Translations under genes and position numbers: made by a program
Shown here: in pieces, positions 365-6,168 of the stretch
Layout of the letters: every line of letters starts with the position of its first letter
How positions within the stretch are numbered: the first letter of the stretch is position 1
The notes under the pieces: model-generated
Told to the model about the DNA's origin: nothing
Database searches by the model: none
Seen by the model: only the letters and a program-made list of their open reading frames with translations
DNA from: Nitrospirota bacterium
GTDB taxonomy: Bacteria > Nitrospirota > Thermodesulfovibrionia > UBA6902
Length of the DNA stretch: 41,134 nt
Direction of reading: 5' to 3'
Assembly: GCA_016234115.1 (NCBI GenBank)
Contig: JACRHD010000060.1
Location: 1-41,134 of the forward strand

Positions 365-1432
365 TTATCTGTCCCCTTTGTTAAACTTTCTTCTCAATCC
401 TGAAAAGGCCAGCACACCGCCGCCTAAAACAAACAGGACCGAAGACACCGGCTCCGGGGCCACGGCGGCATACAGCATGACCTTCCCGTCCGAGCCGCCC
501 GAGATTATATCGGCATATCCGTCATTGTTCCAGTCGGCCACGGAGAAGCGGGAGCGCGGGGACGCGCCGGGATACGTAAGGGTCTCGCCGTTAATGAGCA
601 AGAGCTGTTCAGAGCTGTTGAAAACAGGGGCCGTGCTCGTCCCCTCGTTCCTCAGATAATAGATACCGCCGTTTAATTCGCCGACCAGAAGGTCCTGCAG
701 ACCGTCCGCGTCCCAGTCATACATCCTCGGGGCGGACCTGTCATATCCGGCCGTAAAATCGAAATCGCTGCCTCCCATCTGTACGTTGAAAAATGTATCA
801 AAGCCCGGAGAGGCGTCTGTGTTGCCGTTTATATATACCTGGATCGTTCCCATCAGTGTGCCGACGACCAAATCTTTATTCCCGTCTCCATTCCAGTCGC
901 CGACCTCGACCGACGCCCTGTCGCCTCCCGTATTTAAAATAAAAGTGCCTCCGTCCAGCACGGGATTTGAATTGTCGTTTGTATTCTGGTAAACATAAAT
1001 ATCGCCGCTCGTGTTCCCTACCAGTAAATCATGATATCCGTCATTGTTCCAGTCCACGACCGTGGGATATGAGCCCAGTCAGCCGCCTGCCGCGGCATCT
1101 ATCGCGGAACACGTCTGAGTGCAGGCCTGGAGGAATGATGAGCCGCTGAAGGACGGCGAACTGTCTGTGCCGGTATTCTCAAAAAAATTGACGTAACCAT
1201 GGAAGGAAGGGGACGTCCCCGTTCTCGACCCGACTATCAGATCTTTCATGCCGTCATTGTTCCAGTCATAAACCTCCGGGACGGAATACTCTCCGACATC
1301 GATGCCCGTGATATAAACTCCGGCTGAAAGGTTGGTTTGATAAGCCGCCTGCGCGTCAAGAGAAAAAAGCACAAGAAAAGAAAAAACAAGCGCAAGAGCT
1401 ATCCCCCTAACTATATATGGTTTTTTGCTCAT
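365..1432 (-). CDS. Exported FG-GAP/VCBS repeat protein with PEP-CTERM signal, probable selenoprotein (Sec118)
   Basis: Reading through one TGA (1081-1079) gives 355 residues. Residues about 5-28 form a signal peptide, followed by several FG-GAP/VCBS units with the calcium-type DWNNDG / DWNGDG core, and a C-terminal PEP-CTERM tail (PEP, a hydrophobic helix, then LRRKF) for exosortase sorting. The chosen start has a GGAGGTGGAGG ribosome site; the longer upstream frame lacks one. The TGA follows two cysteines (C104, C108) in a short linker and is followed by a new DWNNDG repeat in the same frame. A SECIS-like hairpin with a GGTC loop sits 17-28 nt from the start of the TGA. A sigma54-like promoter and a strong terminator flank the gene. 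The alternative is a nonsense mutation. The role is unknown, probably surface or matrix associated. Confidence 0.75.
1054..1065 (-). promoter_or_regulatory. Candidate SECIS hairpin, PEP-CTERM gene
   Basis: CCAC-GGTC-GTGG is a perfect 4-bp stem with a GGTC loop, beginning 13 nt after the TGA. In E. coli fdhF the loop GGUC lies at nearly the same offset. The other repeats of this gene that encode the same DWNNDG motif use different codons and form no such palindrome. Confidence 0.65.
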
Positions 1433-2636: not shown

Positions 2637-3425
2637 CTAATTTCCCGTAAGGACCTGATACCACATCCTGATGCCCGTGACCGCGATAATCAGCGCGATG
2701 GCGAGTCTCAGGTATTTTGTATTTATCTTCTTGCTCGCCCTCCCGCCTATCTGCGCTCCCGGTATGGTCCCTATGACCAGGGCTATCGCGTACGGCCAGA
2801 TTATCTGGCCGGTCGCCATCTTGCCTATGGTGCCTGTAAGCGCACCCAGGAAGACAATCCCGAGGGTGCTGCCGATGACGATCCGCGTCGGGATATTCAG
2901 CAGATAGATCATGACAGGGATATATATGAATGCGCCGGGCGCCCCCACCATCCCGCCGAATAAACCTATCGCGAGGCTTACCAGCATTGCAAGCTTCTTA
3001 TTATATCGGATGCCTTCAGGACTGATATCTCCGCCCTGCTCCCTTTTAGGGACAAACATGACTATGGACGCTATGACCGCCATCGTAGCGAAGATCGCCA
3101 GCAAAAAGTCGCTTTTTGTGTGCTTTGAAAACAACGAGCCCGCAAGGTTTCCGACCGCATTGCAAATCCCCATATAGAGGAGAAGCGACTTGCTGACAAA
3201 CCGGTTCTTGTGATGAACGATCAATCCTGAAAGAGAAGCTGAAAGGACCTGCACCATGCTGACTGCGGCCACCTGTTTCATGTCTAACTGCCCGACGCCG
3301 AGAAGGGGCGGAACGTACAGGAGCAGGGGGATCATGAAGATGGCCCCGCCAAGTCCGAGAAGGCCGGAAAGAAAACCGCCGCCGAGACCTAATGCAACAA
3401 GAGTAATCAGGAAAGATAAATCCAT
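2637..3425 (-). CDS. TauE/SafE-family anion exporter
   Basis: 262 residues, strongly hydrophobic, with about eight membrane segments in the two-repeat arrangement of TauE/SafE (Pfam family of sulfite, sulfoacetate and taurine-related exporters). The glycine-rich GLGGGFLSGLLGLGG near the N-terminus and GLFGGMVGAPGAFIYIP in the second half are the characteristic repeats. Twelve nt separate it from sqr upstream, so it is co-transcribed. In this operon it most likely exports an oxidised or sulfane sulfur product such as sulfite or thiosulfate; the substrate is inferred from context only. Confidence 0.85.
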   Translation of the reverse strand: MDLSFLITLVALGLGGGFLSGLLGLGGAIFMIPLLLYVPPLLGVGQLDMKQVAAVSMVQVLSASLSGLIVHHKNRFVSKSLLLYMGICNAVGNLAGSLFSKHTKSDFLLAIFATMAVIASIVMFVPKREQGGDISPEGIRYNKKLAMLVSLAIGLFGGMVGAPGAFIYIPVMIYLLNIPTRIVIGSTLGIVFLGALTGTIGKMATGQIIWPYAIALVIGTIPGAQIGGRASKKINTKYLRLAIALIIAVTGIRMWYQVLTGN

Positions 3426-3437
3426 ACGGGTTCTATT

Positions 3438-4640
3438 TCAGTACTTTCCCTTTAAAATTCTGTTCCAGTAAAGCCAGGGCATGACATACTTTATCAGCAG
3501 CCACATACTGTAACGCTCCTTGGCCGGGTCCAACGGGAAGGTGGGCAGCAGTTTATTGTCATGGTCGAATTCGGCCAGGACGAGTTTGCCGTATCCTGTG
3601 ATAAGCGGGCATGAGGTGTAGCCGTTATACTTATCAGGTAAAGATTTCTTGTCGATGGCGGACAGCAGATTGTCGACCAGGACCGGGGTCTGCTTATGTA
3701 CTGCCGCCCCTGTTTTCGTATCACCCGTATTTGCGACATCTCCCAGACTGAAGATATTTTTATACCGGTTGTGCTGAAGGGTCGCTTTATCGACGTCGAT
3801 CCATCCGAAGGGATCGTCTTTGACCGCAAGCGGGCTGTTCTTGATAAAATCCGGGGCCGCCGCCATCGGCGATACGTGCAGCATATCATATTGGGCCGTG
3901 ACCCGCTCTTTGCTTTCGCCTTTAGTCACTTCGAAGACAGCTTCTTTGGCGTCACCCCTTATTTCAACTAATGTGGACATGTAGGTCACTTTGATGCCAT
4001 ACCGCTTGACTACTTTCAACAGTAATTCATTGATCTCCTTCACTCGCAGCATCCCCGGCTTCCCGGTGAAGAAAGAAATATCCGCTTTGTCCAGTATGCC
4101 CCTTCTTCTGAAATTGTCCGCCGCGAGATACATTATTTTTTGCGGGGCGCCGCCGCATTTATTGAACCCCCCCGGCTGAGTAAATACGGCCTTGCCGCCC
4201 TGAAAGTTCTTAATGCATTCGTAAGTGTAGGGCGCCGTATCGAAGCGATATATCGAGCAGACCCCGTTTTTCCCCAGCGCCTCGGGCAGGCCCTTCACGG
4301 CGTTCCATTTAAGCTGCGCCCCGCAGCAGACGACCAGGAAATCATAAGTGATCGAGTCGCCTGATTTGGTCATAATCATATTGTTATCGGGGTCGAATTT
4401 ATCAGCGCCGTCTTTTAACCATTTCACCCCTGAAGGAATGTAATCGGCCTCGTCCCGGACGGTGCTGTTGATGTCGAAGACCCCCCCGCCCACGAGTGTC
4501 CAGCCCGGCTGGTAGTAATGTTTATCCGAAGGCTCGACGATTGCGACATTAAGAGACGCATTTCTGCGTAACAACTGCGCCGCGACCGAGAGTCCCGCAT
4601 TCCCTCCCCCAATGATGAGGACCTGATAATGTGATTTCAT
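3438..4640 (-). CDS. sqr: Sulfide:quinone oxidoreductase, type II-like
   Basis: 400 residues. N-terminal FAD-binding GGGNAG (residues 11-16), later LGDVANT for the flavin. Two cysteines, C162 in KCGGAPQK and C344 in TSCPLITGYGKLVLAEF, sit in the contexts seen in the type II (mitochondrial SQOR-like) family, where they form the sulfane-sulfur-carrying redox pair. A hydrophobic helical C-terminus (WLLIKYVMPWLYW) fits membrane attachment near the quinone. The start is the Met immediately before the Rossmann fold; the longer frame overlaps a repeat. It should oxidise sulfide and pass a persulfide to an acceptor while reducing quinone. Neighbours tusA and dsrEFH could be the acceptors. Unlike them, it keeps ordinary cysteines. 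Confidence 0.9.
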   Translation of the reverse strand: MKSHYQVLIIGGGNAGLSVAAQLLRRNASLNVAIVEPSDKHYYQPGWTLVGGGVFDINSTVRDEADYIPSGVKWLKDGADKFDPDNNMIMTKSGDSITYDFLVVCCGAQLKWNAVKGLPEALGKNGVCSIYRFDTAPYTYECIKNFQGGKAVFTQPGGFNKCGGAPQKIMYLAADNFRRRGILDKADISFFTGKPGMLRVKEINELLLKVVKRYGIKVTYMSTLVEIRGDAKEAVFEVTKGESKERVTAQYDMLHVSPMAAAPDFIKNSPLAVKDDPFGWIDVDKATLQHNRYKNIFSLGDVANTGDTKTGAAVHKQTPVLVDNLLSAIDKKSLPDKYNGYTSCPLITGYGKLVLAEFDHDNKLLPTFPLDPAKERYSMWLLIKYVMPWLYWNRILKGKY

Positions 4641-4668
4641 GTTTGCACCCTTGACCTTTCCGTTAATA

Positions 4669-4706
4669 GTGTCCGTTGTCCGTGTCAGTCCACGGTTGCC
4701 GGACAC
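4669..4706. repeat. Intergenic palindrome between tusA and sqr
   Basis: GTGTCCG pairs with CGGACAC and, inside, CCGTG pairs with CACGG. It fills the 75-nt gap and could stabilise or attenuate the message between the two genes. Confidence 0.55.
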
Positions 4707-4965: not shown

Positions 4966-6168
4966 TTACTTTTTTCCGACTTTTTTCTTTCTGAATTCAA
5001 TCCAGGCCACAAAGAAATAAAAGGCTGTAAGCGCCGACAGTGTAATGATCAGGGCGCCGCCCCACCCGAATTTGTCGGGTAAAAATACAGACGGTCCGTA
5101 AAGCCCGCCTGTCCCGACCTGAGCGCCGTAAATCGGCACCCATAAGCCGGCAACGAGCATTGCGCCCAATACTGCAAACCAGTGCCTGATATATCCCTCG
5201 GCAGACCTGCCGATTATCCCGACTGCTCAGCCGCCTGTTATCACCATGCCGAAACCGAATATCGCCCCCCCGATTATACTGTGCCATCCCAGGGGCAGTA
5301 CGAACATCTCTGCGGACCTGAACCCGTTTGCCTTAATAATCGTAAATCCGACTACCCCGATAGCGAGACTTATCATGAGAGAACGCATGGTCTCATTTTT
5401 CTTTGTAGTAAATATTTCCCTGAAGGCGCCGCAGAGACAAAAAGCGGACCGCTGAATGACAAGACCAAAGGCCGCGCCGAAAAGGATTATCCCTCCGAAG
5501 AGGTTCTTCCCCATCAGAAAATAGATTGATGCCGCGGCAAACAGGACAATCAACATAAAAGTCCCTATCATTGGCTGCCGGGATTTGTATTCTTTCTCTA
5601 CGCCGACGGACGTCTTGGGCAGTATCTTTAATTCAGCTACTAATTTCCGGGCCTTTTTCCGGCCCTGCCACATCAATACCCTGCCGCCGAAATATCCGCC
5701 GATGATCAGTCCCCCCATCATATAGAATCCGCTCAGAGACAGGGACATAATCGCCGAATAAAACCCTCCGATAATGCAGGCGCCGACCATAAAGCTGCCG
5801 ATGCCCATCAGCGCCCCTCCGATAAACCCCTGGAGATAGCCTGCGGCAGTATCTTTTCTGATCTTGAATTGTCTGGTCAACAGCGCTGCCGAAAGAAATC
5901 CCAGGATCAGGCCGAAATTCAGGACACTGATTATGCTTTTATGGGGCAATTCCAGCGAACCCCACGGCGGCTGTATATTCAGTCCGAGGAGCCTGTACGT
6001 CCATATACCCCAGTCTGCCATGGCAGGATAAACTCCGCCTATCGGCATAATGAATAAAAACAGCAATATGTTCAGAAACGCCAATAATACTCCGCCTCTA
6101 AGCTTGGACCACGTCTTACCGAAGTTTTTTTTATAAATATTTTCATACAGGTATTCGGACAGTGTCAT
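4966..6168 (-). CDS. YeeE/YedE-family sulfur (or selenium) compound transporter with Sec314
   Basis: Reading through TGA at 5229-5227 joins two frames into 400 residues, full length for the family, with about ten membrane helices. The internal duplication is visible: GGALMGIGSFMVGACIIGG (C131) in the first half and GGAIFGFGMVITGG-U-AVG in the second. In the thiosulfate transporter YeeE, three pore cysteines are needed, and Sec314 appears to take the place of the last one. C244 and C246 form an additional CLC pair. ATG start with an upstream GGGGG stretch as ribosome site. Next to tusA it resembles YeeE-YeeD (thiosulfate uptake) and YedE-YedF (selenium metabolism). The SECIS-like hairpin is the best of the six. 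Confidence 0.9.
5198..5213 (-). promoter_or_regulatory. Candidate SECIS hairpin, yeeE
   Basis: TCGGC-AGGTCT-GCCGA: perfect 5-bp stem with loop AGGTCT, the same loop as in E. coli fdhF and at nearly the same distance (offset 16 nt from the first base of TGA to the stem). Confidence 0.82.

Follow-up and report, generated by a model that had tools for sequence, protein, structure and literature searches.

An in-frame UGA, very likely encoding selenocysteine, in a family of putatively surface-anchored FG-GAP repeat proteins

We analysed a window of 41,134 nucleotides from a Nitrospirota bacterium (assembly GCA_016234115.1, contig JACRHD010000060.1) and find that a gene on its minus strand very likely encodes a selenoprotein in which selenocysteine (Sec) is inserted at an in-frame UGA, an identification made without expression or selenium data. 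It rests on four observations, each of which is shown below: the UGA codon is conserved, the hairpin behind it is conserved, selection persists past the UGA, and the machinery for Sec insertion is encoded in the same genome. The same stop codon and downstream hairpin recur in approximately 95 distinct related genes from at least four bacterial lineages and from independent assemblies. We propose the name surface FG-GAP selenoproteins for this family, which is found in the window's own order, in Fermentibacterota, in WOR-3 and in Binatia. Our confidence extends to selenoprotein identity and not to the chemistry of the site. A preliminary description, made from the sequence alone, had proposed selenocysteine in an exported PEP-CTERM/FG-GAP protein, and this core claim held, as homologues share both the UGA codon and the hairpin that follows it.

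The gene and its predicted product

The gene occupies positions 365 to 1432 of the minus strand (355 codons plus TAA, with the ATG at 1432), as originally delimited, although the strand had not been given, and full-length homologues share its frame. It is interrupted by a single in-frame TGA (1081–1079), which we take as Sec118 given the TGA at the same codon in own-order members and at the matching site in Fermentibacterota. The product begins with a hydrophobic export signal (approximately residues 1–30; 1343–1432, minus), recognised from the sequence and with a helix predicted at residues 8–24, and continues into five DWNxDG FG-GAP repeats (D56, D127, D179, D239 and D300; 461–1303, minus) that are expected to form a beta-propeller. 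Support for the repeats comes from Pfam, where the FG-GAP_3 match (E = 1.1e-24; 87.3 bits) passes the cut-off of 26.9, from an AlphaFold model, and from matches to solved structures. The model, built on a three-sequence alignment, is beta-rich (pLDDT 70.7), and its best solved matches in Foldseek are integrin-type and BBSome/KICSTOR propellers, with modest TM-scores of about 0.4. Sec is inferred to lie in an exposed loop just ahead of the strand that opens the second FG-GAP unit; the model's pLDDT for this loop is below 50, and residues 115–118 are too poorly modelled to position Sec relative to the C104-x3-C108 motif upstream (1109–1123, minus).

The C-terminal tail (PEPVSSVLF...GLRRKF; 368–460, minus) falls just short of the curated PEP-CTERM cut-offs (TIGR02595, 15.5 against 16; PF07589, 14.0 against 20.7). 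The PEP-CTERM assignment made in the preliminary description is thus a near miss by these models, supported by two exosortase (EpsH) genes in the same genome and by close homologues that end in the same PEP-CTERM-like tail; the surface location of the protein is inferred. Of the two flanking signals that had been reported, the intrinsic terminator 3' of the stop codon held and is strong (299–338, minus; −28.5 kcal/mol, z = −4.63, with a U-run). The sigma54 promoter is not supported: the site at 1556–1541 would be expected 0.67 times by chance in DNA the size of the window, and therefore carries no evidential weight.

Conservation of the UGA, the hairpin and the downstream frame

The comparison of homologues at the Sec position, which the preliminary description had named as its check, showed the UGA kept at the same codon. 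A search of 100 relatives yielded approximately 23 family members, mostly 46–57% identical to the window protein and nearly all with one in-frame TGA, and 23 of 24 own-order family members have TGA at exactly this codon, within the motif G-U-[LMQ]-G-[SA]-Y-P-x-V-V-D-W or slight variants of it. A match is present in 23 of the order's 47 genomes. The sole exception among the 24 (L031, genome G032) has GGA (Gly) at the site, retains the hairpin, and carries a CFI-box-CTERM domain as its tail. The site is never UAA or UAG, only UGA, and FG-GAP relatives outside the family (L074–L078 and L083–L084) are without the stretch containing CxxxC and Sec. In one homologue (L027, genome G022) the frame contains another TGA (DWNND-U-F) and one pair of the hairpin is disrupted; this copy is either decaying or affected by sequencing error.

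A bacterial SECIS element (bSECIS) is expected immediately downstream of such a codon, with the published model placing its loop 16–37 nt after the UGA (PMC13188914); the loop should also be 3–9 nt long, with G as its first or second nucleotide, on a stem of at least 4 bp. The best-supported hairpin in the window gene (C-R-GUC / GUG loop / GAC-U-G; 1062–1050, minus) has its loop 21 nt after the UGA and is supported by pairing, by RNAalifold and by codon constraint. In the own order 99.2% of its cells are paired, compared with at most 47.5% in slid controls, RNAalifold recovers the helix unaided, and the variation observed is one-sided only (A-U/G-U). The hairpin put forward in the preliminary description, CCAC-GGUC-GUGG, is present (1065–1054, minus; loop 17 nt after the UGA) but is the less conserved of the two options in the own order, where 85.4% of cells are paired. 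All of the geometric requirements are satisfied, with a loop distance of 21–22 nt. The energetic evidence from the window alone is weaker: its 42-nt stretch folds at −7.7 kcal/mol with the hairpin, and a second small helix, in the best structure, against a published limit of −7.5 kcal/mol or lower, and this is no better than shuffled sequences (z = 0.48), so that only comparison lifts the hairpin above chance. An Rfam scan of the window gave no match at gathering thresholds, and the coverage of bacterial SECIS elements by Rfam is not established.

Fermentibacterota supply a clearer structure. There, the alignment of 66 sites yields a stem of 7 bp capped by an A-G-G-Y-Y loop (the AGG loop of the textbook bacterial SECIS). 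The five core pairs are intact in 66/66, one of them occurring variously as A-U, G-C and G-U, and compensatory change on both sides of the stem is seen in 8 cells, as compared with 2.0 in shuffles (0/500 reach 8). The loop of this hairpin matches the position of CCAC-GGUC-GUGG, and the window gene may therefore use either hairpin form.

Selection on the gene is visible at both the protein and the RNA level. Between the two most similar members (L016/L018), dN/dS is 0.146 upstream and 0.155 downstream of the UGA; since purifying selection persists past the codon, the downstream part is translated and useful. Among 100 alignment columns whose amino acid is both conserved and degenerate, synonymous constraint is strongest at the three consecutive codons that form the 1062–1050 hairpin: V125 (GTC, 21/21), V126 (GTG, 19/21) and D127 (GAC, 20/21). 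Elsewhere in the same genes, GTC, GTG and GAC account for 28%, 18% and 51% of the respective synonymous sets. This constraint indicates selection on the RNA where a bacterial SECIS is expected.

Family members, neighbouring thiols and genomic context

Two Fermentibacteria loci, recovered with the window protein as query, have TGA at the matching site, and homologues are present in 36 of 42 Fermentibacterota genomes. Nearly all of these carry exactly one TGA (approximately 90 matches), and a single genome can hold as many as nine matches. The prevailing motif among the 70 distinct UGA sites we examined in this phylum is G-U-C-T-G-A-T-N-P-Q-[VA]-V-D. In three Fermentibacterota paralogues (L166, L167 and L154) the order of Cys and Sec is flipped (C-U-P-K-T-G-A-R-N-P in place of the usual UCTGATNP). 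A WOR-3 genome and a Candidatus Binatia genome each have one UGA member (GUCQGAA and GUCVGFG, respectively) with a hairpin after the UGA. Sec has been lost in some members, being replaced by Gly in L031, by Glu-Thr in L135 and by Asp-Cys in L136, and is therefore not essential in every member; L136, a paralogue, lacks the hairpin sequence as well, whereas L135 and L031 retain it and appear to be recent losses. The tails are interchangeable across the family, comprising PEP-CTERM, CFI-box, T9SS and lipoprotein-like signals (the lipobox of L030 was identified by eye) and plain membrane anchors.

A pair of thiols near Sec had been proposed as its partner, with C108 and C104 lying 10 and 14 residues N-terminal of Sec118. 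The spacing held and the partnership held in part: both cysteines are kept in 19–20 of 21 own-order proteins but are missing elsewhere. No Fermentibacterota member examined has them; a Cys instead lies directly beside Sec, as also in the WOR-3 and Binatia members, and in Fermentibacterota this residue aligns onto the own-order Sec position. One Fermentibacterota member has U without a neighbouring Cys, and L032 has neither CxxxC nor a neighbouring Cys. With the exception of L032, we conclude that the constant feature is Sec with a thiol close by, in an arrangement that differs by lineage. An exchangeable tail combined with this constant feature fits a surface protein centred on the Sec loop. 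No clean homologue with Cys in place of Sec, as is usual in most selenoprotein families, was found among the own-order, Fermentibacterota and FG-GAP relatives searched.

SelA, SelB and tRNA-Sec (72.5 bits) are encoded in the same genome as the window gene, and SelA is present in both Fermentibacterota genomes tested; one genome that carries the UGA gene (G011) has no SelA that we could find in its 91%-complete draft. A changed genetic code was considered and rejected: TGA also serves as an ordinary stop, terminating 11 of the 28 long open reading frames in the window, and the UGA in this gene is therefore a coded exception.

Several neighbouring genes in the window are of interest in their own right. 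One (1756–2508, minus, TGA at 2032–2034) has an in-frame UGA (TPT-U-IICNQSVG) and encodes a PrdB/GrdB-like selenoprotein B, matched by models for D-proline reductase PrdB and glycine reductase selenoprotein B, and another (4967–6168, minus, TGA at 5227–5229) encodes a YedE/FdhT-like sulfur/selenium transporter (VITGG-U-AVGIIG) whose frame is open to 4967; both proteins resemble families catalogued as selenoproteins (PMC13188914). A TauE exporter (2637–3425) and an SQR-like FAD oxidoreductase (3438–4706, minus; NCBIfam 'type III sulfide quinone reductase, selenoprotein subtype', 1e-63, below cut-off) complete this same-strand run, which holds three UGA genes. Beside the gene in about five relatives we observe a recurring housekeeping run of what, from reading the sequences, we take to be NnrDE, PgeF, CBS and TsaE; contexts differ in other relatives, and so the neighbourhood does not identify a functional partner.

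Interpretation and comparison with known systems

In the mechanism we propose, SelB would insert Sec at residue 118 under the direction of the hairpin immediately after the UGA, and the Sec-bearing FG-GAP beta-propeller would then be exported and anchored on the cell surface via its PEP-CTERM tail, with relatives relying instead on a CFI-box, on T9SS or lipoprotein signals, or on a plain membrane anchor. Three alternatives would deny that the codon is read as Sec. The TGA could stem from an error in the assembly or from a recent nonsense mutation in a dead gene, and L027 does resemble a decaying or erroneous copy; however, recurrence of the same TGA in approximately 95 distinct genes from independent assemblies and several lineages, together with purifying selection downstream, refutes this reading and all but excludes it. 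Equally close to exclusion is the possibility that the UGA is a true stop followed by a translation restart that yields two proteins. In its favour, codon 126 is GTG in 21 of 24 own-order genes, but the same codon is GTT in the other three and no conserved start is seen after the UGA, and a restart would split one propeller and leave a downstream product with a surface anchor yet no export signal. Programmed readthrough without SelB, inserting Trp, Arg or Gly, is harder to dismiss, as L031 has Gly at the site and direct evidence for selenium is absent. We nevertheless consider it very unlikely in light of the codon-constrained hairpin at SECIS distance and its AGG loop, the presence of SelA, SelB and tRNA-Sec in the genome, the adjacent known Sec families, and a site that is only ever UGA.

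What the selenoprotein does is far less certain. The likeliest chemistry, by inference only, is a reversible Sec-S-Cys (selenenylsulfide) redox site or a soft-metal-binding site at the surface, and we would put the chances of the redox reading slightly below even. Somewhat less likely, though possible, is that Sec instead captures a soft metal (Hg, Cu, Cd or As) without any redox cycle; the adjacent UC/CU pairs recall the CU motifs listed for mercury and metal selenoproteins (PMC13188914), but the neighbours are unrelated housekeeping genes with no metal-resistance gene among them. Returning to the selenoprotein reading as a whole, a bolder version to which we lean by a narrow margin holds that these propeller selenoproteins form a sizeable, hitherto undescribed family, with several copies per genome and display on the cell surface, in which the anchor (exosortase, T9SS, lipid or membrane) is swappable and the Sec loop is the conserved heart. 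With up to nine matches per genome, Sec in Fermentibacterota would then be bulk surface chemistry (an extracellular redox or metal site based on the selenol) rather than a rare catalytic residue. The family also points to an unusually large selenoproteome in Fermentibacterota. The family is widespread, would be split in two at the UGA by annotation, and would place selenocysteine on a surface propeller without a thioredoxin-like fold, raising the testable question of what an uncultured bacterium does with an extracellular selenol.

The 2026 catalogue of 119 prokaryotic selenoprotein families (PMC13188914) lists nothing under FG-GAP, VCBS, propeller or PEP-CTERM, the family is not one of the nine new families reported by deep-Sep (PMC12013277), and no NCBIfam selenoprotein model (June 2026) matches a family protein with an E-value of 0.01 or below. 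Within a full-text search limited to open-licence papers, none that links selenoproteins or selenocysteine to PEP-CTERM, exosortases, FG-GAP, VCBS, propellers, Fermentibacter or type IX secretion describes this family, as judged by title and abstract. Being absent from the catalogue, the deep-Sep families and NCBIfam, it is in our terms a new selenoprotein family using a known mechanism. The preliminary claim that no selenoprotein of this kind has been described thus held within the resources searched; its accompanying premise, that known selenoproteins are mostly cytoplasmic or membrane proteins, has to be qualified, as exported ones already have precedent in the 2026 catalogue, and the novelty lies in the family and not in export as such. 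The unusual traits of the family are that it is surface-anchored, non-thioredoxin and multi-copy, with no clear Cys-for-Sec homologue.

The family shares its DWNxDG motif, fold and length with FG-GAP/VCBS (integrin-alpha-type) beta-propellers (PF13517/PF01839), whose family models are not, to our knowledge, known to include Sec. The TonB-dependent receptor of FCYXU type, the GSU2204 MtrB/PioB barrel and the ExtKL multihaem cytochrome (PMC13188914) are likewise non-thioredoxin Sec proteins, with folds and motifs unrelated to those of the window family; all three families are extracytoplasmic. The GUxG Sec motif of Hypothetical protein DG (NF049953) resembles the GU[LMQ]G of the window family, but this model matches neither the window protein (E up to 1) nor any alignment member (E up to 0.01). 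Finally, the hairpin shares with the SECIS of E. coli fdhF type its placement right after the UGA, a small G-containing loop and a spacing within 16–37 nt; in Fermentibacterota it also shares the AGG loop. The hairpin of the window's own order differs in being shorter, with 5 bp and a GUG loop.
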